Part shown: in pieces, positions 12 through 37,405 of the stretch
Layout: every line of letters begins with the position of its first letter
Position numbering within the stretch: the first letter of the stretch is position 1
From: Monosiga brevicollis MX1
Taxonomy: Eukaryota; Opisthokonta; Choanoflagellata; Craspedida; Salpingoecidae
Assembly: GCF_000002865.3 (NCBI RefSeq)
Contig: NW_001865046.1
Coordinates: 1,121,131 to 1,162,547, forward strand
Length of the DNA stretch: 41,417 nucleotides
Direction of reading: 5' to 3'
Position numbers and translations under genes: made by a program
The notes under the pieces: generated by a model
Seen by the model: the letters and a program-made list of their open reading frames with translations, nothing else
Told to the model about the DNA's origin: nothing
Databases searched by the model: none

Positions 12-1917
12 ATGATTGACGACGCAGTCCGGAAGGAAGTCCAGGAGGAGACGCAGCGCCAAATGACCGGTCAGCAGCGCCGGGACCGCGCCCCTTCTTC
101 GTTCTGATCGATTTCTTCTTCTTCTTCTTCGTCTTCCATTCTTCTTCGATGCCTTGCCTCGCCAGCATGTGTTTTTCCCACCATCGTTGTTGTGGCCCTC
201 GCTTCCCTATCTCATCCCGCCTCCATTGTTTGGCCGGATCTTCTTTTTTTTTTTTTTCCTTGATCGTGCAGACTTTGGCAAGGACTTTATGTCTGCCTAC
301 AAGGGTCAATTGGTCGGCGAAGCGATTGAGAAGCACGAGGCCGGCGAGGAAGAGGGCCCCGCACTCGAGCTGCAGGAACGCCCCGAGTCGGAACCCCTGG
401 TGGATACCGAGCCCCTCAAGACGGCCACCTTTATCAAGCGCGGCGATGTTCGCAAGAACTGGAAGGAACGCTTCTTCGTGGTTCGCAAGGACCACAACAT
501 TGACTACTACGAGTCGGAGCAGGCCTTCAAGGACGGCAAAAAGCCCAAGGGCACCATCAACCTCTCGGGCTACGAGGTCGTGACGGATCCCAATGGTCGC
601 AAGATCAAGCAAAAGCAGGATCAGGCCAAAGAGTTTGGTGAGGAAATCGGTGACGTCGAGTACGACAAGTACGAGCCCCTGACCATGGAGTGCTTTCACG
701 ACTCGAAGCGCCGCTGGCTCTTCAAGTTTGAGACCCAGGATCAGTTTGATGAGTGGGCCATCACCTTTGCCGAGTGCTCCAAGCTCGTCAGCTCCCGCAC
801 CATGGAGGATGACCAGATGTACGAGGCCTTTCAAGAAGCCTACACTGCCCGCAAATCCCACACCTGGTACTACTACTGGAAAAATTACTCGGGCACTGAA
901 GCTGACATGCTCACCGACCTCCTCACCGACAACGCTCGTCGCCGCTTCCTGGAATCCACCATCCGCAACCTCACCGGCCCCATCAAGATGAAGAAGGTCG
1001 CCCTCGGTAAAATTGTTGCCTTCCTCCGGACAATCATTTCCGGCATTGTCAAGGCCCAATTCACGGCCCTCATTACAGCCCTCAACGCCGTCAAGGAGAC
1101 GGTCAAGAAGGGCCTCGAGACCGCCATTGGTCCGATCGTGGAACTCCGTGGCAAGCTCTGTGGTCAACTGGACGGCAGTGCTACCCCCATCATCAACCCC
1201 GTCGCCGAGAAGGTTCTCAGCCCCATGGCCACTGCTTTGGCTGGCTTCCTTTCCCCCACCCTCTACAGCGCCTACGTGGGCCCCAAGCCCGAGTTTGAGA
1301 AGGAGTGCAAGCGCTACTCGGAAAAGGTGGCCGATGGCTCCCCCCAAGACTCGGCCGACCAGAGCCTTCGCTGGAGCACCGAGTGCAGCTACTGGATGTA
1401 CCATGACGGCTTTGATTATTTGTACAAGATTGTCGACAAGTACTCGGACCTCAAGGGCATGCTGCCCGACGTCGTCCGCAGCAACGAGACCATGTCCAAC
1501 CTGATTGACTCGTACCTGGACTTGTACTCCTGGACCTGGAACGTGCGCTCCTCCATTCGCGCCCTCTACGACCGGGCCGCCTACACCTACACGCAGGCCA
1601 TCAACGAGGACCCAGCCACCGCCAACGAAAAGCACGATGCCGTTTTTGCCGCCACCTGGGCCAGCTTTGAGCACGATGCCAAGTTCTCCGTGGTTCAAAA
1701 CCTGGCTGACTTTGTGACCGGTCCTCTGTCCTTTGTTCTCAAGGACTCCATCCTTGAGAAGCTGACCCCCCTGCTCGAGCCCATCGACTCTCTCATTCCG
1801 GAAACCCTCCAGGAGATGATCAGTGGCACCCTCATCCTTGAAACTGTTCTTGATAACCATGTGGGCTCCATTGCCAGCGGTGCTGCCGAGGCTGCCTGGG
1901 ACAAGCGATCTGCATAA
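12..1917 (+). CDS. PH-domain protein with long amphipathic-helix region (5' end may lie outside window)
   Basis: The main exon 272..1917 follows a T-rich tract and a CAG acceptor. An upstream exon reads in frame from the window edge, with an ATG at 12, and joins at 69 in matching phase, giving about 567 residues. Because the frame is open to base 3, the true start may be further left. After an acidic N-terminus comes a pleckstrin-homology domain (about residues 65-180). It has a basic FIKRGDVRKNWKERFFVV strand pair, a charged insertion, and a closing helix with the typical Trp (DEWAITFAEC). PH domains usually bind phosphoinositides or proteins at membranes. The remaining 380 residues are mostly helical and amphipathic, with Pro breaks and no transmembrane segment or catalytic motif I can name. 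I do not recognise the family. The donor used here (CCG|GTCAGC) is weak, so the first exon is less certain than the rest. Confidence 0.8.
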
Positions 1918-2542: not shown

Positions 2543-4183
2543 ATGGCAGCCGTCGCAAATCAATCTCTCAAAGGCAGGTTGACTCGGCAGCTTGACCTGG
2601 CTTGCATGCGCACACAGACCCTCACTTGATGGTCGGCGCGCCGACCCATAGGCTCTTGGGCGCTAGTCACGGGCGCTGGTCGTGGCATCGGCCGAGCGAT
2701 TGCCCTGGTGCTTGCCAGTGAAGGCATCAACGTACGTCAAGCCGCCGTTCTCAACGATAGCATTCCTCTGTGAGCCCACCATACAGACTCACCTGCCCTG
2801 CCCTGCGCGAGCAGGTTGGCCTGATGGCTCGCACTGAGTCGCAGCTCCAGTCCGTGGCCGAGGAGTGCCGCGCCAAAGGTAAGCTGCGCTGCCTTCGACT
2901 CGCTTGCGTGCCGATTCTCCGTGACAGCTTACCCGCGGTTGTCTGTTTCATGCACTGGACGTCTCAGGGGCTGCCAAAACCGCCGTTATCCCCTGCGACA
3001 TGAGCGACGGCCAAGCCGTGCAGTCTACAGTTGAAAAGTTTACCGGAGAGCATGGCTTCCCCAAAGTACGACGCCTCTGAAATCTCGCTTCACACTGATG
3101 CACACTCACGCAAATCCGCATACGGCTGCACCCTCGAACCCTGGGCAGGTATTGGTCAACTGCGCTGGCATGATGGCCAAGGGTCACGCCAAGGAAGGCG
3201 ATCCTGACGAGTGGGACAAGATGATGGCCATCAACGTCTCGTCAGTGCGCCTCGCCCTGTGACTTGCACACCAGCCCTTCCCCTACCCTCAATCTCATCG
3301 TTTTTCTTTCTTCCAAACCTTGCAGGGCACCCATGCGTCTGACGCGCTACCTGAGCCCTGAGATGGCCAAGAGCGGTGGCGGCTGCATTATCAACATTGG
3401 CAGGTGTGTCCCCGCTCGTCGGCCCACTTGGCGTGTATTTCAACTGGCCCTTGCAAGAAGCTCAAGCCACGCTGTTGCTGACCCCCTCTGCCTCCATCCT
3501 GGGCTGAACTGTTTTTGCAGCGTTGCCGCTGTGGAACCCATGCAGAGCTCGGGGGCCTACGCTGCCTCCAAGCATGCCTTGCGCGGTACAAACCCGCCCC
3601 CGACTTTATTTTTGTGATGCGGAAATCTTTGACGGGTATCATCATGCCTCACTCGACGACTAATGCTTTTGCCGTCACAGGCTGGAGTTTGAGCTGCTAC
3701 CAGGCCCTTCGCCACGATAACATCAAGGTTGTGCTCATCAACCCGGCCTTTGTCAACACGGAGCTCGTGGCTAGCGTCCAAGGCGTCATCAAAGGTGTGA
3801 GGCAACAGACTGCCACCGTTGCACTCATTTTGAGCTGTTTTTTCTTTTTTTTTCTTTTAGTCAGATGGGCATGGGTCTTGCGGTGAGCCTGGGTCTTTCC
3901 TCATGTGATATCGATGCCCTCACTTAGAAAATATGCTCCAGCCCGAGGACATTGCCGAAGCCACGATGCTGGCCTTGAAAACTTCGTACGTCGGGATTTT
4001 ACGAATCTTCTCGCGTTTGTTGTGGTTTTCCCTTTTTTGCCTCAGAGGGTCGCGCTGGTCTATTTGAATGAGCCTCAAGCTATGAGCAATGCAAGCTGAC
4101 GCCATATTGGTTCTTTTCTCTGCATTAGGTCTGCCTGTGTGCCCACCGAAATTACGCTCCGCCTCACCTTGGCTGCTGCCTAA
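2543..4183 (+). CDS. Short-chain dehydrogenase/reductase (classical SDR), 250 aa, 11 exons
   Basis: This is an NAD(P)(H)-dependent oxidoreductase of the classical SDR family; its substrate cannot be told from sequence. Exons: 2543..2573, 2652..2731, 2815..2878, 2968..3065, 3149..3240, 3326..3403, 3521..3585, 3681..3794, 3865..3882, 3928..3985, 4129..4183. All phases close to 250 aa, the normal SDR length. The Rossmann cofactor motif TGAGRGIG follows the start. NCAG replaces the common NNAG, the catalytic Ser region is INIGSVAAVE, and the Tyr/Lys pair is YAASK. The family's Pro-x-x-x-x-T after the sheet is seen as NPAFVNTEL. No signal peptide or membrane segment is evident, so it is probably soluble. 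Intron 1 closes only with a GC donor (AAAG|GCAGGT), and exon 9 is an 18-nt microexon. No targeting signal marks it as peroxisomal or mitochondrial. Confidence 0.92.
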
Positions 4184-4484
4184 ATCGGGATGCCCCCTCG
4201 AATTCCCTACGTGCAATTGACCCAACACTCCATCCCAACAAGTCATTTTGCTCAAGCCTGTTTGATGGAAGCCTCTCCATGATAAAAGCCTCTCCATGCA
4301 GTCTGCACACCAACAGCCCAAGCATAGCTCCTCGCCACCACCAGATACATCAAATACATGCGAACACAAACCGAACGATTCTCATCAAGAAAAAGTCCAA
4401 AGAAAAAAAAATTTATGGAAAATGTCAGTCAGTTGTAACAGTCCACACACACACACACACACACTGCGAGCACGCACGGCTGTC
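4184..4484. other. Intergenic between SDR and MRNIP, with (CA)n tract
   Basis: This 301-nt spacer is A-rich in its second half. A (CA)n run of about 22 nt (4443-4464) ends 20 nt before the MRNIP start codon. No gene was seen. Confidence 0.5.
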
Positions 4485-5594
4485 ATGGGGCAGGTGTTCC
4501 TCGTGGTCAGCTGCTTTGCCTGCGGTCAGTTTATGGTGCGCCAAGAGGTCAAGGTAGGCACGAACGCCATGCTGTAGGGCTAGTCCATGGTGGAGACGTG
4601 TCTTGCCGGTTGACGCTGATGCATGCATGCCATGGGTTAGGCCAAACGCTGGACATGCCCGATTTGCAATGAAAAGCAGTCCTTTCGAAAAATCTTTTTC
4701 CGAGGCACCAGTCGTGAATGCCGGAGTGTGTCGCAAGAATGGAACATGCGCCGGGCCATGGCTGATGCCGTGCGCTCAGATGTCAGTGACACTGATTGGC
4801 CAGGTGACGCCCTGGACGAATCTGCACGCATACAGCAGCCCGCAGATACAGGCCCCCGGATCGATTGGGGTCAGTTCGCAGAGACAGCCGAGGGCGTACC
4901 TCTACCAGCCGTCCGCCAACAGTTCGGCAACGACCGCCCCGACCATGCAGAAAGCGACGATGAGGTAGCACTTGACTTGACCTCCGTTGGCGCTTCCGTG
5001 CGTCAGCGAAAGGGCAAGTCGGGACCTCGCAAGCCAAGTCAGAAGCGCGATGCTGAAGCTAGAAATCCAATCGCTGAAGTCCTCGATCATGAGGCGCGCC
5101 GCTTCCCGAGGCCAGCCCAGCAACCACGCCTGCAGTATGCCATCAAAGATGGCGAACACACGCCTGTTCATTGCTCTCGCCCGAAACCCAGACTAGATAC
5201 AACACACGCATCCCGGCCAACCCAGTCCGTCACACACAGCCGCAACGGTGCCGAATCTCCTCCCGCGTCGACGGCCACGACATCCAAGCCAATGTCCATC
5301 GCCGCAGCACTGGTGCTCAAGCGCTCCCAACCCGCTGCGCCCACAACCGAACCGGTTATCCAAACATCGAAAGCGCCCCCGCACAAGAGCCCAGCCCTGG
5401 CGCCAGCCAAAAAAACTATGCCTATCCACTCGATGCCAACACCCACAGCGTGTCCCGCACCGACAGCAACCGCGATTAAGGTCTCACGCCCTGACCAGTT
5501 TGAAGCCCAACCCCAGCCTCCTGCACCAGCAGCCGTCTCGTGGTCGAGTTTCGCCTTCCAACGCGACAGCAGCTCAGACGACGACGAGTATTGA
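4485..5594 (+). CDS. MRNIP: MRNIP homologue (MRN-complex-interacting protein), 340 aa, 2 exons
   Basis: Exons 4485..4553 and 4641..5594 join in phase 0. The N-terminal 60 residues carry the family's zinc-binding pattern: CFAC in the first exon, then CPIC in the second, followed by NEKQSFRKIFFRG. This matches the human MRNIP arrangement (CCSC, VKWTCKACGEKQSF). Human MRNIP binds the MRE11-RAD50-NBS1 complex and supports ATM signalling and replication-fork protection in the nucleus. The middle is long, Pro/Ser/Thr-rich and probably disordered, as in the family. The protein ends in an aromatic-acidic tail (WSSFAF, then DSSSDDDEY), resembling the acidic C-terminus of the human protein. Start choice: the ATG directly precedes the first zinc half-site, which sits close to the N-terminus in the family. 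Function is inferred from family membership; conservation outside the zinc finger is low. Confidence 0.88.
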
Positions 5595-5927
5595 CATGTG
5601 ACGAAGAGGCCCTAGTGTGTGTGTGTGTGTGTGTGTGTGCATCCTCCTGAGCTGAGCTCAGCCCCCAGAGTCCCGAATTGAATCATCAAAAACAAACAAC
5701 TTACGCCCTTGTCCACGTATGAATGCAATTTGTTGCGGAACACAAATGTGAACCTGTGATACCACACAAAAGTCAACTCTTCATGTTCTCAGGACCAAGT
5801 CATCCGACAAAAGACGCCGCGTGCACACAGCGTGCATCTTGGGGACCCTGCCTGTTGTTCAACCAAGCCCGGGTGGCTGGGAGTGCGCCACTTTTAAAAA
5901 TGCATCGCCTTGGCGAGCCATGTGCGT
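5595..5927. other. Convergent intergenic spacer (MRNIP / mitofusin) with (TG)n
   Basis: The two flanking genes end here facing each other, so both 3' UTRs must share this 333-nt stretch. A (TG)n run lies at about 5614-5639. No gene was seen. Confidence 0.5.
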
Positions 5928-8900
5928 CTACGCCGAGGGCGGGGGCGAAAAAAAGTTGTTGGCGATGCGGTCCAGTTGTGACACGTGCTCCGTCGAGTGG
6001 GCGATGAGCTGTCGTGCGTCGCGAAGCTGTGTCTCAATGGCGTGCTGTTCCTGTTGCATCGCGGCAATGTCCACCTCCAGATCTGATTTGACCTGATCCA
6101 CCTGCTCCTTCAACAGGGACCGATCTTCGTCCAGACGTGAGCGCATGTACTTGGCATTCGCCCGCGTATTCTCACGCGCCTGACTGTAGAGTTGCGCCAC
6201 GGCATGGTCTTGAAACTGCTCCTTAAACTTGCGTTCCTAAAAAGATTCAAGGAGATATTGCACGAGACGGGAACCAACCGTGGTCATTGAGGGCAAAAAC
6301 CGGGAAACTTCCCTTAATTAAATAAAAAAATAAAATAAAAATAAAAAACGACAGGAAGCTAATTGGTGTTTTGCTAGTTACAGCAGACCTGCGCCGCGAC
6401 AAACCTGAGCTGACGGCGTGTAGGATAGGCGCTCATAGGCGTAGGCGCACGCCACGGAAACACCAGCCCCAAGAACCAGATATTGCACCCACTTGTGCCG
6501 AAGCATACGATACGCTGAAGGCACAGAGGCCGCAACCACGAGCGTGTAGGGGGTGTTGGAAGCAATGTCCCACCCTGCACGGCCCACGTCCAGCATCATG
6601 CTGGTCGTTCGACGGGCCATGGCACCCATTTCCGGCTCTTGCACTGAAGCTGCCGCAGCCACGTTTGGGCTACTGGTCGATGAGGACGATGATCCGCCTG
6701 GCTCGCTGGCGTGTCGGCGTTGCACGTCATGGACGGCTGAGGTCACGCGCTTTGTCAAGTCCGTTGCCACGTGTTCAAGGGTCAGACGAGCGGGGTCAGG
6801 AAGCAGCTGCGGAGCAAGACGGCCCCAGGACAGGGAGAATTCAAATTGAAGCTGCTCATGGAACGTGTCCGTCAGACCACGGCAGTCAAGACCCAAGTTG
6901 GCTTCGTAACGACGACCCGTTACCACGGTTGCTGGCAGTGCGTGGCGTCCCGAGAGGAGTTGCTGCGTCAGCTCCACCAGCTGTCGACGAGCAGCGCGAT
7001 ACCGCTCTTCAATCTCGCGCCCACATGAGGCCGTGAGCCCTTGTTGCAGGTTGTCCTCCACATGTGTGGTGAGGGCCTGCTTGTAAGCCGACAGCTGGTT
7101 GGCATCAAACTCAACGTTTACAAAACTGGACAAGATCCTAAATGATCAAAGTCAATGCAAGCGAGGAAAGAAAAGACATACAAAGGAAAGCAATGGAATG
7201 AGTGATGACAGCAATGGCTTGAGCGTGAATGCTTTCTTCGTCGCCGTAGACTACCAGCGGAGGTGGTCTGCACGAGGGCGGGTGCACCAGGCACAGACAT
7301 GGACACAGCGCAAGCACGTACTCGGGGAGCTGCAAGACAACTTGTGCCTGCATTTGATCCAACAGTTCAGTGTACATGGCCTCGGGTACATCCTGAATAA
7401 TCTTGTCGCACTGATCCATGAGCTTGGCCTCACTGACCATGATCACGCAAGCAACAGCAGCACAACAGAGTGGAAAAAGCACGTGAGCGGACCAGCCCCA
7501 TACGCTGAACACAAAAAAAAATCCTCATGGATTTGCGATCTTGTGCAAGCTGTCTTACCGGCGGTTCAAGTCCTGCAAGAGACGGGTGTTGGCATGAAGT
7601 CGCTCAGCCACGCGGGCAGCTTCGTCGGTGAGGTGTTGGATCAGATCGCGCAGCCCCGTGGTCAAGACCGAAGCCATGCGTCGACCCTCGTCGATGTGCC
7701 GAGAAAAACGGGTGGCAATGGCATGGGACGTGATCACGGCTTCAAATTTATCCTCAAATGCAGCAAACTCCCTGCAAGGCGTTTTGAACATTGAGCCAAA
7801 GGCCATGAGCTGTTAGGTCACGCACGTGTAGTAGCGCCACACCCAATAAAAACGCTTGCAGATATGTCACAAGGCGCACCTAGCGCGAGATTGATGCGTG
7901 TTGAGGCCGGGTACCACCGCACTAGATGGGTCAGTGTACGCTAAAAGATTGAGCAAAACGCTCTCGTGAGGGTTGTTGTGCAATAAACTCGGCCAAACGT
8001 GCAGGGACGAGGAGGTTGCGGTGTAACACGTACAGGTTGTGCGGCTGTCTGAACCAGCGCGGCTCTTGAGCACCTCTTTGCTAGAAACGAAGAACACGCG
8101 TGACGAGAGTTCTGCCTCGCTACAGATACCGAGATCTCGCACGAGCAGATCCCGGGCTTTTGACATGTGCTGGGCCCGAACGCCCGTGACATCAGCCTGC
8201 CCAAGCAAAGAGGCAGATACGAAGCTGAGCATGAACACGGGCGACATGGAAGCATTTCCAAAGAGCATGCTTGAAATAGTTGCAGAAGGAGTGGCCAAGT
8301 GCGTGGGACAAACCTCGTCCTCGTCCAGGTTGTCCCACTGGTTGAAAATCACAAAGACGTTGGGTTTGGCCACGGTTTTGCTGTTCCAAAAGTGAACCAG
8401 AAGATGCGTGAATGCTGCGGGAGTGGTGATGCACAACGGCCCAAGAGGCCAGAGAGCAAGTGGGCGGTGGTGGCTAGACGACGCACCAGACTGAGTGAAA
8501 GAAGCCAGACTCTGCACCGCTGAGAGTGCTGACGGCGTTGACCACCAGAACAAAAACGTCTGTATGTGGAGGCGTGGGAGCGAAAGAGCCCGGCGTGAGC
8601 ACAGCAATGATAAACTGGCAGCCAGGGAATTATCCCCAATAGACTGACCGGCATCGCGAGTTGTCTCATCGATCCAAGCATCGAAATCGCTATCGTAGTC
8701 TAGGCCTGGCGAGTCGAGGATGACCACATCATCGCGCAGCAGGTGGCACTGATCACGTGGCCAGTGAATTTCGACGGATTGGCCCGGCGGAAGGACGTGC
8801 TCTTGTTGCAGGGCATCGGTGAGACTCTGGACGTCCTTCAGATCGCGCGGGGTCGGATCACCGGGCAGCTGCATGTAAGCTTTAGATTGGTCGCTGCCTT

Positions 8901-9871
8901 GCAAGCTACGCAGCAGCAAAGCATCAGAATTTGCCCATCAGAGAACAGACCCAAGCCAGTCAGCCGACACAAGTGCAAAACACAGGATTGAGCAGGATGA
9001 TGTTCGGAGGCTAGGCAGGCCGGCCACGGGCACAAAGCTGGGCGTACGTCACAAAACAATTGGTCGTGTGGCCTGGGCCCGCCGGCAGCACCCTAGTGTG
9101 CAGCATGGCATTGATGGTTGTGCTTTTGCCGTTGCTAGTGCGTCCCACAAAGACGACCTGTCGAGATGGAATGCGAATTGCGCGCGTGGCCCACGATGAG
9201 AAGGAGCAGCGGCAGCGAGACAGCAGAAAGACATTTGAATGGGCATGGCACTACCCACCTTCATGGACTCGCGGGTTACGCTGCGGATCATTTGCTGGCA
9301 GCGATTGACAAACTCGCCGGTGGAAGCGCGCAGCGCCTCAACCATGCTCTGTAGAAACGGGCGGGCGGACATGAATGGAGCCCGATAAGCTGGAACGCAT
9401 GGTGTGTGCGTGTGCCTCTCTGTGTGTGCCTGTCTGTGAAAGCAAACTCACCTGACGGCCATCAGCCGTTTCGCTGGACCAAACCCAAGTCTGCTCGCAA
9501 AACTTTTTGGCTGACTGAAACGAGGTTCTGCAAAGGTGAAGATGGCAAGTCAGCGCCGCCCAGTCGATTCAGGTCACATGCACACCCAGTGGGTCCGGGC
9601 ACGAGGATCAAACAGGCGAGGGGGGTGCATACTCGAGTTGGCCCATGACATCACAGATTTCTTGCTTGGCGGCCACGAAGCGCTGCCGGGATGGGTGAGC
9701 AATTGAGATGAGCAAGCGTGGTCAGCCATGAGGTGCGTCTGAAACGAGTGGACTGTCCAAAGATACAAGGTGGCAGCGCACCTGCAAGCCCTGCGCAGCA
9801 GACGGCTCATCGACGGCCTTCTCGGCCACGATGCCGTTGGCGTTGGGATTCGTTGCAGGCTCGGTGGCCAT
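5928..9871 (-). CDS. MFN: Mitofusin / Fzo-type outer-mitochondrial-membrane fusion GTPase, 800 aa, 14 exons
   Basis: Exons in transcript order: 9782..9871, 9633..9682, 9452..9527, 9259..9348, 9048..9157, 8649..8905, 8487..8559, 8314..8380, 8034..8196, 7880..7940, 7559..7771, 7322..7432, 6405..7137, 5928..6236. All phases close to 800 aa (human mitofusins about 740-757). A dynamin-type GTPase domain carries G1 GRTSNGKS (107-114), G2 HTTN (about 132-135), G3 DSPG (203-206) and G4 NQWD (262-265). A helical heptad region follows. A hydrophobic stretch (about 648-690) fits a membrane hairpin in the outer mitochondrial membrane. The C-terminal exon starts [12 protein letters not shown] and forms the HR2 coiled coil. 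Mitofusins tether and fuse mitochondria by GTP hydrolysis. The N-terminus ([17 protein letters not shown]) aligns with the animal HFVTAKKKINGIFEQLG helix. Intron 13 contains an AT-rich block near 6310-6350. Confidence 0.95.
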
Positions 9872-11455: not shown

Positions 11456-14400
11456 ATGGCCTACGCGATGCGGCGCTCGTTGAGCGCCATCTTGGGCATG
11501 CTCATGCTTGCTTGTGTCGTGTCGAGCCAAACTTGTCTCCCCACGAGCTTTGATCTTCTCTTCGTCCTGGATGGCAGCGGCAGCATTACGAGTGAGCAGT
11601 TTGATGACGTTCTCCGTTTTGCCAGTCGCACCGTCAAGGTCCTCAACATCTCCGACAACGACATTCAGTAAGCATGATCGCCTCTACTCTGGCTGCTACC
11701 TGCTTGTATTCACCATGCGCACGGTGTCACATCTGTGCTTCTCTTCCCCATGCTGCCTCACTTGCCTACCTGTGAATATTACAGGGTGGCTGCCTTGGAG
11801 TTTGCCGATTATGGCAATTTGATGTTTGACTTTGCAGAGTATGCCTCGACGGAGGAACAGGCTATCCGACAGCACATTCGCAGCATACCGTACATGTATG
11901 GACCTACCGATACCGGCCGGGCGCTTGAGGACGTTGTCAACAACGTGCTCGTGCCCAGTGCTGGGTTTCGCGATGGGTCGTGTGTAGTGGTTGTGGTTTC
12001 AGACGGCCAAACACAGGACAAGGCACGCCTTGCGGCAGCAGCTCCCAGATTGCATGCCACCTCGTGCCGTGTCTTGGCCGTCGGCGTTGGCGATGATACT
12101 GATTTTGCTGAGCTTGCCGTCATTGCCAGTTCCCCCAGTGAGCACAACATCATCTGGGCCAATGAGCATGAAGTCCTCAAGGAGGACGAGGTGTTGGCCA
12201 CCGTCGTTCAACGTCTGAGTCAGTGCACCGATACCGAGGCGAGCACCGCATCCACCGCTAGCACAAGCACCGTGTCGCCCCACGCCACCAGCCATTCTAC
12301 CCATTCTCCAGTCACGGATGCCAATGGATGCCAATTGTTTGAAAACACGGATTGCTTGCCAGGATACTACATTTCATGGACGCGCAATGCGCAAGGATGT
12401 CTCATGTTTGAGTGTGTACCGTTTGGTGGAGTCCCAACAACTACGCTTGTACCACCGACGACCCGCCTTGAGCCAACACCACTGCCAACCACCACCACAT
12501 CGGCTCCCGTCACACGGCCTCCATTGACTACGTCCACCGCAAGCGACACGACGCGCAGCCCGGTCACTACGTCCGCATCCACCCCGTGTGACGATGAGGT
12601 GTGCAACTGCAAGTCTGATGCCTATAAGCATGTATGGACTGATGCCTCCACTGGCTGCCGGCGCTGCCAATGCCTACCCCTGGCCACGCCTGCAAGTACC
12701 ACAACGCCACGCAGTGATACCACCCGGGAGAGCACCACAGCCTCTCCTACAACCGCCACCTTTTCCTGCCCTGCGCCTGAAGAATGCATGTGCAAGCCCT
12801 CGGCTCAGCTCTATGAGTTCCAGGATCGCAACGGCTGCTGGAAGTGCCAGTGCCTTCCGATCGCAACTACAACGACTCCATCTCCCCCCTCTACTCGCAC
12901 GCCCGCCATCACAACAACAAGTACCGCGGTGGAAACAACCACGTCGCGAGCTACCACTGTAACCAGACCAGCCAGCACCACTGCACAGACTACAACCACC
13001 AGGACCGTGTCGTGTACAGACCCCGTGTGCCGCTGCAAACCTGATGCCATGGTGCGTTATTTCATCAACCGTCAAGGTTGCTTGTCGTGCACATGCGAGC
13101 CCATGCCCACAACAACGTCAGGTGAGGTGCGCACCAGCAGCACCAGCAGCACGTCTAGCACCAGCAGTACCAGCAGCACGTCTAGCACCAGCAGTACCAG
13201 CAGCACGTCTAGCACCAGCAGTACCAGCAGCACGTCTAGCACCAGCAGTACCAGCAGCACGTCTAGCACCAGCAGTACCAGCAGCACGTCTAGCACCAGC
13301 AGTACCAGCAGCACGTCTAGCACCAGCAGTACCAGCAGCACGTCTAGCACCAGCAGTACCAGCAGCACGTCTAGCACCAGCAGTACCAGCAGCACGTCTA
13401 GCACCAGCAGTACCAGCAGCACGTCTAGCACCAGCAGTACCAGCAGCACGTCTAGCACCAGCAGCACGTCCAGCGCAACAGCTTCAGTCAGCACCACTAC
13501 GCCGAATGTGAATGGTACAACTACCACACCCAATGTCGACACTACCACGACACCGAATGTAAATGCCACCACCACTACACCTCTGGTGGATACAACTGCT
13601 ACACCCAACGTCAACGCAACGACGACGACACCTCTGATCGAGACTACGACACCCGAAATGAACGCTACCACCACCACTACACCTCTGGCCAATGCCACCA
13701 CTACAACTCTGGTTGATACCACCACGACACCTCTGGTCAATGCTACCACCACGACACCTCTGGTCAATGCCACCACGACACCTCTGGTTGATACCACCAC
13801 GACACCTCTGGTCAATGCCACCACTACACCTCTGGTCAATGCCACCACCACTACACCTCTGGTCAATGCCACCACCACGACACCTCTGGTCAATGCCACC
13901 ACCACTACACCTCTGGTCAATGCCACCACCACGACACCTCTGGTCAATGCCACCACCACGACACCTCTGGTCAATGCCACCACTACACCTCTGGCCAATG
14001 TGACCACCACTACACCCCTGATCAATGCCACCACTACACCTCTGGTCAATGCCACCACCACTACACCTCTGGTCAATGCCACCACCACGACACCTCTGGT
14101 CAATGCCACCACCACGACACCTCTGGTCAATGCCACCACCACGACACCTCTGGTTAATGCCACCACTACACCTCTGGTTGATACCACCACGACACCTCTG
14201 GTCAATGCCACCACCACTACACCTCTGGTGGATACCACTACACCTCTGGCCAATGTGACCACCACTACACCTTTGACTACCACACCTTTGATGGATACCA
14301 CCACGCCTTTGGCTAATGCTACTACCACCACACCTCTGGTGGATACCACTACACCTCTGGCCAATGTGACCACCACTACACCTTTGACGACTGCACCTAC

Positions 14401-17400
14401 CACTACACCTTTGACGACTGCACCTACCACTACACCTCAGGCCAATGTCACCACCACTTCACCTCTGGTGGATACCACTACACCTCAGGCCAATGTGACC
14501 ACCACTACACCTCTGGTGGATACCACTACACCTCTGGCCAATGTGACCACCACTACACCTCTGGTGGATACCACTACACCTCTGGCCAATGTGACCACCA
14601 CTACACCTCTGGTGGATACCACTACGCCTTTGGCTAATGCTACAACCACACCTTTGGCCAATGCTACTACCACTACACCTCTGGTGGACACCACCACTAC
14701 TCCTCTGGCCAATGCTACTACCACTACTACTACACCTCTGGTGAATGCCACCACTACTACTCCTCTGGTCAATGCCACCACGACACCTCTGGTCAATGCC
14801 ACTAGTACGACCCCCAATGTAAACGCCACAACCACTACACCTCTTGTAGACACGACGACGCCCAATGCGAATGTGACGACCACGACCCCTATGAACAATG
14901 GCACCACGACTCCTTTTGATACCACCATGGCCTCAACTTCTACTACTTTGATCTTGCCGTGTGCTGTGACCGCTGACATTGTCATTGTCATTGATGCATC
15001 CGGGGCAATGAGTATCAATGATTTTACGGCTGCCAAGACCACAGCTTTGGCAATTCTGCGTCGCCTGGCACTTGCCCAGCCAGATATCAGCGTGGGTCTC
15101 ATCTTCTTCTCTCAGCAGGCACAGGTTGCTCTTCCTCTCTTGGATATTAATGATGAGACTGAGTTTCAGCTGCTTTTGTTGGTCCTACAAGCCGGGCAAT
15201 ATCAAGGTCAAGCTACCAATCTAGGCAGCGCGCTCAGCTCGGCTGCCGACCTTCTTGAAACTTCCAACAACGGTGCCCGTCAATTTATCCTCTTCTCCGA
15301 TGGATCTAGTGATGACCAGGGTACTCTGGTAGCTCAAAACATCCGTGCGACCGGGATTCAGATATTGACGGTGGCCAACGTGATGAACGCCAACGTGTAC
15401 AATCTGCTTCTGATTGCTGGAGCGGCTGACAACATCTTCTTGACCGTGCAGTCCGATGCCACTCAAGCGGATGCAGCCGTGGTCTCCAACATCGTCAACC
15501 AACTCTGCACGCCTCCCGGAACAACGACGCCTGGCTCATCGAGCTCCACAAGCACTCCGACGACAGCGATGCCTACGCGCCCGGCAACTACAACAACGGC
15601 ACGCCCGACTCGACCACCCATGACCACGACTACGCGGGCACCGGCGACAACCACGCGGGCACCGGCGACAACCACGCGGGCACCGGCGACAACTACACGC
15701 GTGCCTGTTACGACGACGCGAGTGCCGGTGACCACAACGACGACCTGCGCTTTGATGCCAGATGACCTGTACGTAGTCGTTGATGCTTCTGGAACGATCA
15801 CGGTCAGCGACTTTTTTGCCATGAAGTCGCTGCTGACGTCCCTGGCCAAGATTCGCTTCGCCGATACTGCGTGCCTTGATCAGCGCATCAGCATTACAGT
15901 CTTCTCCGATGATGCAGCCACAGTGCTGTCTCTGACGAATGGCACATCACTCGTGCGCGTGCTTGATGGCATCAATGGGCTCAACTACCTAGCTCGGCGC
16001 TCCAACTTGGGTGCAGCATTGGACCTGGTGTTTGATGCCATCGTCGCGTCGGATTCATACGTGCAGGGCGCGGTCACTCGCCCAACTGCCGTCCTTGTCC
16101 TTGGCGACGGGCGCCTGTCTTTGAACACACCCGAGCCGCCATTGCCGTCTGTAGCCAACAACCTCGAGGCTGCTGGCGCCGCTGTGGTACCCGTGGCCAT
16201 TGGCGACTATGTGGATGACGACCGACTCTTTAGCTTGGCTACCTTTTCCAAGCTGGCCTACTCTTTTGACGCGGTCAACGCCTCTTTGCTGAGCCCCGTT
16301 GTGCGCTTTGCAGCCGAAACGGCCCTTGCAATTGCACAGCAAGGTGGGCTCACTTATAGCAACTCATCTAATGTCTTTGCGGAGATGCTCTTCGAGGCCG
16401 ACATTGACGATTTCGACCCCGTCTCGGGTCAACTGACGCTTCATGTACCCGCGGGCCAGCTTAACGGTCTTGTGGTGCCCAGCTTTCTGCTCGTACAGCA
16501 CCTCAACTCCAGCCTGGAGACGACGCTGGCCATTGGGGACTCGGTTGTTGAAATGCATACGCTATCCGGTTCACGTGTGGTCTTGCACTTGGCCGCTGAT
16601 ACCCGCAACGCCCTGGCTCAGGCCATTTGGGAACGTGGGGCCATGGAGGGTCTTCGGTTGCTGTTTAGCGACAGTGCGAGCCAATTCGAAAAGGTCTATG
16701 CTGTCTCTCATGTGAATCAGATCTCAGAAACTGCCATCACGGCTCAGGTGACCATGCCGGATGACTTTTTGAGCGTGGTGGCCATGCCCAACGAGCTCGT
16801 CCTCGTAGCCCCGCAGGCTGGCATTGTCGTGGCTCTGCGCACTTTTGTTTCTGCCGCCGGCTTGGGGAGCAACCAAACTCTTTGGATCGAAACATCGCAG
16901 CTACCTTCTGCTTTCCAGACAGGACTAACTGACATGCAAGATCAGGCCGATGTCGAGCTATACGTGGGACGAGCTCGCCAAGAGTTGTTGGCCGCCTGGT
17001 CACAAGCTGCAGTGAGCACCACCTTGCCTGACGCAAGCAGCCCGGGAGGTCCAGCCACCGGTGCACACTCGGCTGAACGCCTGACTTCCACGAGCCTTTG
17101 GCTCGTTGTGATTTTGGCCTCATTGGCTATGGGTACGTGAATCGCGTTATCGGAAAGATGATCATGCGTCGCTGTCGTGCATCCCTTGCTCGTATCTGCT
17201 GCTGTAGGTGGTTGTATCTCATGTCTTGTTCATTCTGGTGTGGTATTTGATTGTTAGTCACACTGATCGTGGGGGCCATGGTCGTGTATCGTCGCCAGCG
17301 GCGCTTTGTGGTCAACCAACCGACGGTGACAGAGGCGTGCCCGATGGAAGCCAGCAATGTCTCGCTGAGATCCAGCCGAACAGCTTGGAGCCGATACAGC

Positions 17401-17481
17401 AGTGCCACTCCGGCGCAGTCACACGTGTTTGGATTTGATGAGCATGAGATGTTCGCAGAGCCAGATGCAGCAGCATTCTAG
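11456..17481 (+). CDS. Giant type-I membrane protein: three vWA domains, Cys-rich modules, mucin-like repeats (1927 aa, 3 exons)
   Basis: Exons 11456..11667, 11785..17132 and 17258..17481 close in phase. Order: signal peptide (about 1-25, ending VVSS-Q); vWA-1 (about 30-220); Ser/Thr linker; four Cys-rich modules (about 246-515), each ending GC..C.C and resembling antistasin-type knots; a Ser/Thr block from a 27-bp DNA repeat (about 518-635); a Thr-rich array of TTTPLVNA-like units (about 640-1125); vWA-2 (about 1126-1313); a second Thr/Pro linker; vWA-3 (about 1391-1590); a globular membrane-proximal region; one transmembrane helix (about 1838-1860) and a short cytoplasmic tail of about 65 residues starting YRRQRR. 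vWA domains bind proteins or matrix through a metal site. The stalk would be heavily glycosylated and hold the domains away from the cell surface. I infer an adhesion or prey/matrix-binding receptor. I recognise no named orthologue. Confidence 0.88.
13127..13471 (+). repeat. 27-bp coding minisatellite, about 12 copies (Ser/Thr)
   Basis: A 27-nt unit containing a single ACGTCT landmark recurs at exact 27-nt spacing; I count 12 landmarks between about 13153 and 13455. It encodes three STS triplets per unit. The copies are almost identical at DNA level, which implies recent unequal exchange or slippage rather than selection on protein alone. The length is a multiple of three, so copy-number change keeps the frame. 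Confidence 0.93.
13500..14935 (+). repeat. Thr-rich mucin-like coding repeat array with N-glycosylation sequons
   Basis: Degenerate units of about 8 residues (TTTPLVNA, TTTPLVDT, TTTPLANV) recur across 1.4 kb. Counting by eye gives about 38 N-x-T sequons, mainly NAT and NVT. Units with D in place of N lose the sequon. Blocks of identical units alternate with diverged ones, as expected for an array that grows by local duplication. Abundant Thr and Pro also suit O-glycosylation. Confidence 0.9.
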
Positions 17482-26000: not shown

Positions 26001-26434
26001 CCAACACGACGACGGATCAATGAGCATGGTAAGAGGCAATGCAAGAAATGTAGTCAAGCAGGCCACGATGTGTTGCTGCCACAATGGCTCTGACGGCGAC
26101 CAGGACCTTACCTCGATAAGCTCCTGGGCGATGGCGTTGCCGTAAACGGCGCGAATGTTGTCAATCTGCGGAAATAGCCAATGAGTCGCGAGCCCGGGGC
26201 AAGATGGAAGCCCGCTAAGCGCGAATGTTACGCACCGTGGAGCCAGAGGCCGTGGTGCGTACCAACGCGGTGGCCTCGCCAAACTTCTTCAGCGTGAGGC
26301 CTGCACCGCTGTTGTGAATGGCATAGCTGAGGCGACGTCATGGTGAGCTGGGGACGCACCAGGCTCATGGAACGGGTGCGAGCATGACATTGACATTGAG
26401 GGCAAAACGGGGCAGCACACACACACACACACAC

Positions 26435-26481
<47 letters not shown>

Positions 26482-27429
26482 GTGAAACAACATCCACGAT
26501 GCGATTGAGCTCGTCATTGTAGTTTTTCAGAGCCCGTCGCCGGGCCTGCACATTGTAGAAGAGCTCCTCGACGGTGATCTGAGTGCCCGTGTTACCGGCG
26601 CACGGCTTCGGGGCTGCAGGTTTATCAGGACGTTCGGCCACCATCTTGCCGTCTCGATAAGATGCACTGCGGTGGAGTAACCGCCACGCACATGCCATAT
26701 TCAGCGATGGGGTGAGCCAGGCATGGCGCAAGTTCACGACAGGCAAAACAACAACTTAAGTTCTAGCCCAACCTGTAGGCGCATGGGCTGGTGGGAGTCT
26801 TGGTGATGATGGAGAGATGCGCAACGTGGCTGATGCTCGCAAGTGCCTCGCCACGAAAACCATAGGTAGCGATGGTTTGCAAGTCTTCGTAGGCACTCAG
26901 TTTGCTGGTCGTGAATCGCTCACAGACAATGTCCATGTCTTCTTTCTACAGCCAGGCAAGCCGCGGGCGGCGCGTCCGCGAGCGCGCGTTGAGCCGGATG
27001 TGCAGACGCAACGAGCAAAGAGGGACTTTCAAACTGCAGAATACGAACATTAATGCCATGACCATTATCCTGGATTTGCAAGAACTTGATGCCACCTTGC
27101 TTGACAGTGATGGTGACGCTGGTGGAGCCGGCGTCCAACCTAGACAAAGGGTGGCATGGCTTGTCAGCGGCAGATGTCCATGGACGTCCAGGCGAGCAGG
27201 GCGAGCAGGGCAGGCAATGACTGACGAGTTTTCCAACATCTCCTTGATGGCGTTGGCGGGGCGTTGAATGATCTGGGAAGCACGACACAAGGCAGGTCTA
27301 AGAAAAAAGTACCCGGAGGTACATCAACGTGTTGGCAACGCGGCGGGCCGAACGCACCTCGCCAGCGGCGATTCGATTCACAACAGCCTGCTCAAGGCGA
27401 TGGATTTTGGGGGGATCTGCGCTCGCCAT
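22628..27429 (-). CDS. MLH1: MLH1, DNA mismatch repair MutL homologue, 917 aa, 20 exons
   Basis: Exons in transcript order: 27358..27429, 27226..27272, 27049..27139, 26773..26945, 26481..26666, 26236..26326, 26112..26165, 25845..25989, 25612..25733, 25267..25512, 24452..25182, 24282..24367, 23954..24170, 23704..23755, 23532..23600, 23304..23449, 23125..23188, 22959..22994, 22736..22843, 22628..22645. All phases close. The GHL ATPase has NRIAAGE, catalytic Glu35 and Asn39 (KEMLEN), DNGHGI (64-69), GFRGEAL (99-105) and the transducer motif [15 protein letters not shown] long low-complexity linker includes a Gln-Ser repeat (about 474-492) and explains the excess over human MLH1 (756 aa). The C-terminal dimerisation domain (FVGCIDQ, ALAQHQ, SEELFAQ) ends in VFERC, the invariant MLH1 terminus that helps form the MutL-alpha endonuclease site with its PMS partner. 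Role: nuclear mismatch repair after MutS recognition. Intron 11 has a GC donor (TCG|GCAAGT). Confidence 0.97.
23011..23041 (+). repeat. A31 run = poly(T) tract of MLH1 intron 17
   Basis: On the coding (-) strand this is 31 consecutive T, lying 16 nt before the acceptor of MLH1 exon 18. It forms the polypyrimidine tract of that acceptor, so length changes could affect splicing. Confidence 0.9.
24936..24992 (-). repeat. Hexanucleotide repeat in MLH1 exon 11 (Gln-Ser)
   Basis: About nine CAGAGC-like units (GGCTCT on the + strand, with two or three substitutions) encode an alternating Gln-Ser tract in the MLH1 linker. Unit length is a multiple of three, so copy change is frame-neutral. Confidence 0.85.
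26414..26480 (+). repeat. (CA)n microsatellite reaching the MLH1 exon 5 splice donor
   Basis: About 67 nt of CA repeat with one CG interruption. On the coding strand it is (GT)n starting at the first intron base after exon 5 (TCACG|GTGTGTG), so the 5' splice site is itself part of the microsatellite. Confidence 0.92.
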
Positions 27430-34296: not shown

Positions 34297-37200
34297 ATGG
34301 CGCAGCAGCACTCTGCTGGGGAACAAACACCCAGACCGGGGTCCCCAGTGGGGGTTGTCGAGCCCGAGGAGCACGCCGAGCCTGCCACGGCCATCTCCGT
34401 TCAGTTTCACCGGCAACATAGTCGTCAAGAGCATGTTCAACTGCAAATCGGATGCGCGCACACGCATAGCCACGTTGTGGCAGAGATGCGCCTGACCCTG
34501 ACCCGACATGCTCGAGCATCGGCTGCGCATTGCATCCCAGGCTCGACCCCAACTGCCGATGCAGATAAGCGAGCGCTTGCTGATCTCGAAGCACTTGTTG
34601 ACGAGCTGGATGGATCCCCCTTTGATCGCTTGAAACAAGACGCACCTCATATGCTGGCCCGTCTTCGGTGTGCGGCCCGTGCTCCCGACGTGGCGCTGAC
34701 AGTGCGCCAGTTGGCCATGGACATGTTATACCAACTGTCCACGCTCTGCCGTGCCCTGGAGAACTTGGCACGCTTGGATGTCCTTACGGGCCAAGAGCCT
34801 GCCACGCCCAACATGTCGCCCGTGCGACGTGCTCCGGCCGAGACGCCGCCGGCCGGCACTTCTGCTTGGCATCACTCCAGCCCCAACCCGCCTCGACTAA
34901 ATCTGGATGTGTCCATGGCCAGTTTGAGTCACTCCTTTGCCTCGGTAGTGAGCTTGGATGACTCTCGCGCCGCCTGCCCCCCTTCGCCCATGCAGCCCAG
35001 TGTGAGTGATGATGCGCTTGACGTGGCTGACTTTGAGTTGCCTCAAGCGCAAGTCGGCTTTCGTCGCCCGGCCCCGCCCTCCACTGGCCAGCTGATCCGG
35101 CAAAATGCCCGAGATACATCACCCGTGATCCCCTCCAGCGAGGCCCTGCCGACTTCTACCCCATATCGTGGTCTTTTGGCCGACACCATGTTGGCGACGC
35201 CCATGAATCGACGAAAGCGCAGCAGCGTCTCTACGGCCAGCCCCTGTTTGAAGGAGTCGCAGCCTCCTGGTCAGTCTTGTGCTCAACGAGGCCCTTGCCA
35301 CCGCCCCCACTCATTAAATTTTGCCTACTCAGCCCGACCTCATTCACTTTGATGCCTTTGTATGTTTGCTGGCACGGCCTTTCTGTAGGCTACAAGGACT
35401 TTGAGATCATCAAGCCCGTCTCTCGCGGGGCCTTTGGAAGCGTCTTTCTTGTTCGCAAGAAGGACTCGCAGCAAATTTATGCTATGAAGGTGCAAGCTCT
35501 GCTGATGGTCGCCGTGCCTGGCACTGCGTTGCACCTATGCCGCCACGTTCTCGCGGCTAATCGCCACCGCTCACAACCTGGATCCCCTTGCATGCCTTGG
35601 CCCGTGTGATTTAGATGATGCGCAAAGAAGTGTTGAGGCACAAAAATATGGTCGATCAGGTGGTGACAGAGCGCGACGCGCTGGCGCTGGTCATGAGCCC
35701 CTATGTGGTGCGCCTGTTCTACTCGTTTCGCTCCGAGAATGCCCTTTACCTTGTGATGGAGTACCTGATTGGTGGCGACTTGGGGCAAATGCTCGAGCAG
35801 TTTGGCTCCTTTGACGAGGAGATGGCGCGCTTTTACCTGGGAGAGATAACCATTGCCCTTGAATACCTGCACCGCCATGGCATCATTCATCGTGACCTGA
35901 AGCCCGACAACATCTTGATCGACGCGCGTGGACACCTCAAACTGAGCGACTTTGGTCTCTCGCGTATCTGCCAAGATCAACCTGCACTCTCACCCAACAT
36001 CACCTCGGAGGAACGGCATCGAGGCTCGCCCCGCGAGGGTGCGAGTAACGCGCGCGCTACACCTCAACTCGCAGACCCCCTATCACCTCTGGTGCAGAGC
36101 AGTGAGGCCAAATCCGATTTTACGCGCACGCCCGGGCAGTTGCTCTCACTGAAGACAGACTTTCGTCTCTCTGTACCACGCAAGTGGATGCCGTCGGCAA
36201 GTCGGCGGCGACTGCGCCGGGACTACAACAACAGCGCTGTTCTCACGCAAACTGCCGAGGACGGCGGTTTTACTCGCACACCCTTGCGGGCACGCCACAA
36301 CTACAGCAGCGCCAGCAACCATGGCAACCTCCCCGAAGCAGATGCACACACCTGCCAACAATTCCCTCTGGCAACGGTGTCGTCCTCCATGGCTTCCAGT
36401 GCGCAAGCACCCGGCCCTCGGGAGGCCAAGCGCCGGGCTGTTCCCATGACCATGCCAGTACCCATGACCACCCCCCACGGTCACTTGGCCGCCCCTCGAA
36501 CCAATCTCTCGCACATTTCCGAAGAAAGTATGCTTCACTCAGAGACAGAAAGCATCAGCTTTGAACTCCCACCCTTGCCCATCAACAGTCGGCCCAGCTC
36601 TGCAGGCTACAGCGCATTACAGCACAGTGGCATCAGCGTCAGCTTTGCTAGCCACACGAGCCATGCCAGTCAGCCAAGCCATGGCAATCATTCCCATCAT
36701 CGCGTGCATTACACCACCGAGGCCAACCTCAGCCAAGCCTCCATCCGCTCCTTGTTGCAGCCCGACGCGTCGTTTGCCGGCTGTTCGCTGGGCTCGCGGC
36801 CCTCCACGGCGGGTAGCTCGCGCCTTCATGATTTAACGGGCTTGAGTGAAGCCAGCCCCGCAAAGGCTCAGGCCTCGCCCACACTTTCATCACCGCGCCC
36901 CTCGACCCCGCGTCACCACTCTCTCAAAGGCACGCCAGACTACCTTGCACCAGAGCTTCTCTTGGGCACCGGGCACGGTTGCCCCGTGGATATTTGGGCG
37001 CTGGGGGTGATTGCATACGAGCTACTCAACGGGTACCCGCCCTTCAATGATGAGACCAAAGAGGCGGTGTTCCGTCGCATCGTTCGCCACGATATGTTGG
37101 ACAGCGAGGTGGAAATGAGCCCGGCGGCTACAGACTTTATCAATGCCTGCCTTGCACCACTGCCCAAGGATCGCCCTTCAGCCCATGCGTTGGAGCATCA

Positions 37201-37405
37201 CGCCCTCTTCAAGGGGTTGGACTTTGCTCAGATGCAGTCTCAGACACCGCCTTTTGTGCCACACCCCGATGGTTGCTTGGACACGGGCTACTTTGAAGGT
37301 CGGGACCGTGGGCAATTGAGCCTCGTAGCCGAACTCAGCTTTGCCACGGACGGCACGCCCATGGACTTGTCAACCCTCAGTGCCGCCGTCTCATCCTCGG
37401 CATGA
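34297..37405 (+). CDS. MASTL: Greatwall/MASTL-type AGC kinase, 954 aa, 3 exons
   Basis: Exons 34297..35269, 35389..35489 and 35615..37405 close in phase. The kinase N-lobe has [12 protein letters not shown] (335-346), YAMK with Lys358, and the helix-C ERDALAL. The C-lobe has HRDLKPDN (450-457) and DFGLSRI (471-477). About 325 residues then separate DFG from GTPDYLAPE (797-805), the hallmark split activation segment of Greatwall. The insert includes [10 protein letters not shown], matching the conserved TRTPGQVLSL of animal MASTL. The C-terminus has the AGC-tail features PFVPHPD and TGYFEGRD. Greatwall phosphorylates ENSA/ARPP19 proteins, which then inhibit PP2A-B55 and sustain mitosis. The N-terminal 324 residues are extra compared with human MASTL (kinase near residue 35). 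They contain a helical patch (about 135-172) and Ser/Pro-rich sequence. The ATG at 34297 was chosen because upstream frame is only TG repeat. Confidence 0.92.

Follow-up and report, generated by a model that had tools for sequence, protein, structure and literature searches.

A three-vWA, Cys-module-bearing predicted membrane protein with a mucin-like stalk in Monosiga brevicollis

Introduction

In a 41,417-nucleotide stretch of Monosiga brevicollis DNA (hereafter the window), an initial annotation described a giant surface protein with a signal peptide, three vWA domains, Cys-rich modules, Ser/Thr- and Thr-rich regions, one transmembrane (TM) helix and a basic-start tail, all in one reading frame. 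The locus raises two questions: do these parts form one chain, and what might such a chain do at the surface of a unicellular relative of animals?

Results

Gene structure and open frame

The gene is predicted to have three exons (Table 1). Exon 2 runs without a stop from 11785 to 17132 and holds both unique flanks of the repeats in a single frame. Its non-repeat left and right parts are open over all 448 and 730 codons, compared to longest stop-free runs of 282 and 315, respectively, in 1000 base shuffles of each part, an openness greater than chance. Four AG acceptors were tested for each intron, within 11701-11850 for intron 1 and 17151-17300 for intron 2. The long open frame is kept with 11785 only, and 17258 alone gives a complete TM helix followed by arginines, and with it the 1927-residue form. 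The two introns, like the single transcript, are predicted. The three-exon model bears out the claimed single frame from signal peptide to tail, and the frame continuous through exon 2 supports the view that this unicellular relative of animals has a single gene here. The parts lie in the order listed by the initial annotation, which omitted a region of ~265 residues between vWA3 and the TM helix.

Two minus-strand frames are open opposite the repeat arrays, at 13072-14430 (452 aa) and 14485-15102 (205 aa), and are taken as by-products of repeat composition. The GC content across the whole window is 0.51-0.62 per kb. Elsewhere in the window, an ORF at 35615-37405 (+) encodes a protein kinase domain in two pieces around a long insert (189.9 bits, two stretches), as in Greatwall/MASTL kinases, and an ORF at 154-1917 (+) contains a PH domain (41.9 bits). 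By eye, two further ORF pieces are MLH1/MutL-like (26228-26746, -) and mitofusin/dynamin-type GTPase-like (7867-8919, -), neither matching a Pfam family at E<=0.001.

Table 1. Features of the predicted gene, in window positions
Feature	Residues	Positions	Strand	Remarks
Predicted three-exon gene		11456-17481	+	ATG 11456, stop TAG; 1927 aa, calculated 200 kDa
Exon 1		11456-11667	+	gene model
Predicted intron 1, GT-AG		11668-11784	+	117 bp
Exon 2		11785-17132	+	5348 bp
Predicted intron 2, GT-AG		17133-17257	+	125 bp
Exon 3		17258-17481	+	ends TAG
Signal peptide, probable	1-24	11456-11527	+	hydropathy only, 19-residue maximum 1.76
vWA1	27-218	11534-12226	+	Pfam VWA 114.1 bits; split by intron 11668-11784
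First Cys module, divergent	253-283	12329-12421	+	four Cys; 2.8 bits against module profile
Canonical six-Cys module	339-369	12587-12679	+	35.3 bits; profile contains this copy
Canonical six-Cys module	399-429	12767-12859	+	46.1 bits (copy in profile); AF2 mean pLDDT 83.3
Canonical six-Cys module	481-510	13013-13102	+	41.6 bits; profile contains this copy
Ser/Thr block		13131-13464	+	27-bp unit x 12.4, 99% matches (Tandem Repeats Finder)
Thr/Asn array	641-1129	13493-14959	+	units such as TTTTPLVNA, TTTPLVD
vWA2	1130-1312	14960-15508	+	Pfam VWA 80.7 bits; MIDAS degraded
Thr/Arg/Pro linker, vWA2 to vWA3	1314-1391	15509-15745	+	composition of residues 1314-1391
vWA3	1392-1571	15746-16285	+	Pfam VWA 49.2 bits; MIDAS altered
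Juxtamembrane region	~1572-1838	16286-17086	+	no Cys; no Pfam above cut-off
Single TM helix	~1842-1864	17096-17289	+	hydropathy 2.78; spans intron 17133-17257
Cytoplasmic tail	1867-1927 + stop	17296-17481	+	gene model

The three vWA domains

Searched singly against Pfam VWA (PF00092), all three domains claimed from the sequence score above the cut-off of 23.8 bits. The metal-binding MIDAS motif consists of DxSxS, followed by T and then D. When 23 vWA pieces of the genome were aligned and inspected by eye, vWA1 showed the complete motif (DGSGS, T and D), vWA2 read DASGA, without the final Ser of DxSxS, and vWA3 read DASGT with a Ser replacing the middle Thr. The full motif is found in vWA1 only, and metal binding cannot be assumed for vWA2 and vWA3. 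Cys27 and Cys218 flank vWA1, as Cys1130 and Cys1312 flank vWA2, where the A domains of von Willebrand factor have their closing disulfide.

Pairwise comparison of the three domains gave identities of 43/181, 38/175 and 50/169 (22-30%). A recent origin as tandem copies is not supported by these identities, nor by a 20-domain tree, which keeps the three apart with mostly weak branch support. The part from vWA2 to the TM helix finds its best solved-structure match in collagen alpha-1(VI) (E 4.4e-7). Pfam search of the exon-2 frame up to E 1 returned VWA, VWA_3 and a weak Copine match alone; the propeller repeats of an integrin alpha chain, which carries its I domain inside a beta-propeller, are absent from the Pfam matches of the gene. 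Intracellular and non-adhesive proteins, too, carry vWA domains.

Cys-rich modules and their family

The four Cys-rich modules of the earlier description proved to be three canonical ones with six Cys and a divergent first one (Table 1). No support was found for the label of a Cys-knot stalk: the modules have no Pfam or PDB profile match, and the AF2 model of the six-Cys module, a two-strand hairpin, has no fold match. Foldseek with this model returned nothing at E<=0.001, and the four window modules matched no Pfam family up to E 10.

A fixed-pattern search revealed nine loci in the genome, the window gene included, which together hold at least 23 distinct copies, and at all nine the modules lie in frames with Thr/Ser-rich stretches. 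The count covers distinct sequences and is a lower bound, because the fixed pattern was applied only to loci already collected by earlier genome searches. Outside it are an identical copy on contig C21, more diverged candidates from a profile search, and candidate places on C16, C42, C39, C53 and C56. The C21 copy (G000:C21:94621-94710) is identical to a C51 module and is soon followed by a stop, and could be either an incomplete copy or a product of the assembly; at the C51 locus, a run of N adjoins the modules. A search with the C-N-C-K codon pattern was uninformative (43+45 matches compared to 42+44 in the reversed control) and was dropped.

The modules share with the antistasin domain (PF02822) six Cys and a C-terminal half of the form D-x-x-GC-x2-C-x-C, whereas the window-type modules read C-x-C-K where antistasin has C-x3-C, and their C3-C4 loop is longer. 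Antistasin membership was ruled out by the Pfam cut-off test: PF02822 touched one of the 23 copies (E 0.031), and none of its nine matches in the whole genome, six of them above cut-off, falls at the nine module loci. Alignment of the module with the genome's own antistasins by hhalign gave 91.3% over 18 of 31 columns, compared to 5.2% and 0.5% for control alignments with unrelated modules, and the module profile reached domain E-values of 0.023 and 0.04 against the antistasins on C13. The likeness appears confined to the C-terminal half and may reflect a distant kinship. Passages of PMC12482156 already record choanoflagellate antistasin domains. The six-Cys CxCK module family is claimed by no Pfam family.

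The Ser/Thr- and Thr-rich stalk

The claimed Ser/Thr- and Thr-rich stalk is supported by the Tandem Repeats Finder arrays and by the composition of residues 641-1130 (44% Thr and 12% Pro). The Ser/Thr block contains a single internal difference and is probably young and length-variable; its 27-bp unit was not found in other genes at the four loci checked. In the Thr/Asn array, N-x-S/T sequons take 38 of the 45 Asn within 489 residues, whereas 5000 shuffles averaged 17.7 and never exceeded 29. All 41 array units are multiples of 3 bp and keep the frame. The codon-position evidence is mixed: mismatches to the consensus at positions 1, 2 and 3 number 5, 14 and 25, and those between adjacent units of equal length 9, 2 and 11. 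Tandem repeats rich in Pro, Thr and Ser, by which animal mucins are recognized, are thus present, and Pfam detected no SEA, VWD or CysD domain of animal mucins in exon 1, the exon-2 frame or single pieces.

Juxtamembrane region, TM helix and tail

The ~265-residue juxtamembrane region seems unique to this gene: a genome search with residues 1572-1830 at E<=1 returned only itself, and no relative was found among viral contigs. Its Pfam matches at E 0.016, 0.12 and 0.21 are below cut-off and were judged chance, and the single-sequence model of vWA3 with this region is unusable (mean pLDDT 34.7). Hydropathy and the splice test agree on the one TM helix and basic-start tail of the initial annotation. 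The tail showed none of the five simple sorting or binding motifs tried.

With intron 2 retained, the frame would reach a stop at 17140 after ...STSLWLVVILASLAMGT (17096-17140). This short hydrophobic C-terminus resembles a GPI-anchor signal, so that splicing might switch the anchor, which we regard as possible.

vWA genes across the genome

The genome assembly G000 (39,470,161 bases, 57 contigs) contains 24 PF00092 matches at E<=0.001, counted per exon, four of them in the window gene. The initial annotation, to which no named animal protein with this order was known, is too strong if it means a one-off, as a second three-vWA gene exists and eight further loci carry the Cys module. That second gene (L010, G000:C42:825767-828600) has an N-terminal vWA exon, then two vWA domains and a TM helix in one ORF. 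Like the window gene it has three VWA matches, Thr-rich linkers, one TM helix and a short tail, whereas it lacks the six-Cys module (fixed pattern) and the long array, bears a Cys-rich stretch between its vWA2 and vWA3, and ends in a tail unrelated by eye. In both genes a phase-2 intron splits vWA1 within the codon that immediately precedes the strand starting V/M-x-x-x-x-F, a match that is suggestive, as it compares two genes alone.

Other loci join vWA to related parts. L017 encodes vWA, long Ser/Thr-rich stretches and a TM helix in one ORF. In L014 one ORF holds a Thr-rich stretch followed by vWA, and a second, in another frame, holds Cys-rich repeats and a TM helix; the locus would be a further vWA on a TM-bearing chain if an unmodelled splice joins the two. 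In L013, vWA alternates with collagen repeats. A single ORF of L012 matches HH_signal (28.6 bits, cut-off 22.1) as well as VWA, cadherin and TNFR, which is the Hedgling architecture; Hedgling is described in choanoflagellates, sponges and cnidaria in passages of PMC4054682, and the presence of such an ORF bears out the choanoflagellate source of the genome. Judged from these predictions, vWA-bearing membrane proteins are a class in the M. brevicollis genome.

Several further vWA loci were observed. L018:3135-8264 matches VWA, cadherin and EGF, has an HH_signal score of 20.0 bits, slightly below the 22.1 cut-off, and is perhaps a second Hedgling-like gene. In L011, a Kre9_KNH domain (28.0 bits, 1881-2867) lies upstream of a vWA-cadherin ORF (3302-5704) that bears a long poly-Thr run. 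Two near-identical vWA ORFs on separate contigs (L020 and L021, G000:C44 and C51) perhaps reflect recent duplication. L015:2193-4325 has a vWA ending a Ser/Thr run of ~480 residues, in DNA without the 27-bp unit of the window gene.

Discussion

What might this protein do? We propose, with a probability of roughly 0.55, that the protein crosses the membrane once in type I orientation and displays vWA1 on a glycosylated stalk, as an adhesin or capture receptor. Adhesion, the role suggested by the initial annotation, is retained as the likeliest one on the strength of vWA1 with its full MIDAS, the stalk and the TM helix. The signal peptide would route the protein to the cell surface, where type I topology would place vWA1 at the far end; outermost and metal-competent, it may bind matrix, other cells or prey bacteria. 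The Cys modules, held by disulfides, may form compact, protease-resistant beads, and the Ser/Thr block and Thr/Asn array, if heavily O- and N-glycosylated, would make a stiff stalk. Glycosylated chains extend by 0.2-0.25 nm per residue, so the ~610 residues of block and array would span 120-150 nm, which suggests a stalk length on the scale of 100 nm. With their altered metal sites, vWA2 and vWA3 would serve as membrane-proximal structural or protein-protein modules, and the TM helix and short tail as the anchor. In line with the adhesin reading, L010 and L017, and L014 if spliced, also carry vWA on Ser/Thr-rich TM chains.

The main rival is a structural role in a mucin-type coat or theca, in which the array would do the work, as barrier, lubricant or anchor of a lorica or theca, and the vWA domains would assemble with matrix proteins. 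We give this role about one chance in four. It would suit the Thr- and sequon-rich array, a Cys module that always accompanies Thr/Ser-rich frames at its nine loci, as expected of a shared glycoprotein toolkit, and a genome that also joins vWA to collagen repeats; however, the TM helix with its tail and the complete MIDAS kept in vWA1 argue against it. A mechanosensor or signalling receptor, in which a pull on vWA1 would travel along the stalk and by way of vWA2/vWA3 reach the tail and the region next to the membrane, is improbable: it would follow an integrin-like logic and give a use to the unique region adjoining the membrane, but that region has no named domain and the tail none of the motifs tried. 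Equally improbable is a pair of neighbour genes joined only by an open repeat frame, the first for a secreted protein with vWA1, the Cys modules and the array, the second for a vWA2-vWA3-TM protein. Repeats are easily stop-free, as their open opposite strand illustrates, but both unique flanks share one stop-free frame and every array unit keeps it, although a chance frame match alone would occur one time in three. Altogether, an adhesin or capture receptor that binds by its tip is the simplest reading.

Known adhesins share parts of this plan. Apicomplexan TRAP-type adhesins and fungal flocculins also present a binding domain at the outer end of a stalk fixed in the membrane or wall, whereas TRAP stalks contain TSR domains and flocculins use different binding domains. 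Hedgling, in the portions of PMC4054682 that describe it, is likewise a large TM protein with vWA, but possesses a Hedgehog signal domain, cadherins and TNFR repeats; Pfam found none of these in the window gene, HH_signal and cadherin included. The C-type lectin Rosetteless of S. rosetta, which according to sections of PMC4381721 coats and connects cells, shares a signal peptide, a binding domain and long mucin-like Ser/Thr runs, and differs in having C-type lectin-like domains where the window protein has vWA. Dictyostelium SibA, as outlined in part of PMC9453864, also serves adhesion from the membrane and combines vWA with a Cys-rich region, but is integrin-beta-like and its tail bears two NPXY motifs, of which the window protein tail has none. 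A search of the open PMC literature found no description of the window protein or of the six-Cys module.

A broader interpretation, which we offer tentatively, is that the CxCK module represents an uncatalogued disulfide family marking choanoflagellate mucin-like glycoproteins, in a CysD-like role, and that the window gene fused this toolkit to vWA and a TM helix to yield a stalked, metal-dependent capture receptor, whose anchor splicing might switch.

One study places vWA outside animals only in soluble proteins, at least in the portion of PMC4894438 concerned, and the five non-animals of its Table 1 are all fungi. The M. brevicollis genome speaks against extending that statement to non-animals in general, as Hedgling and SibA already do. 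Moreover, the recurrent Cys module provides a concrete signature for searching choanoflagellate stalk proteins.
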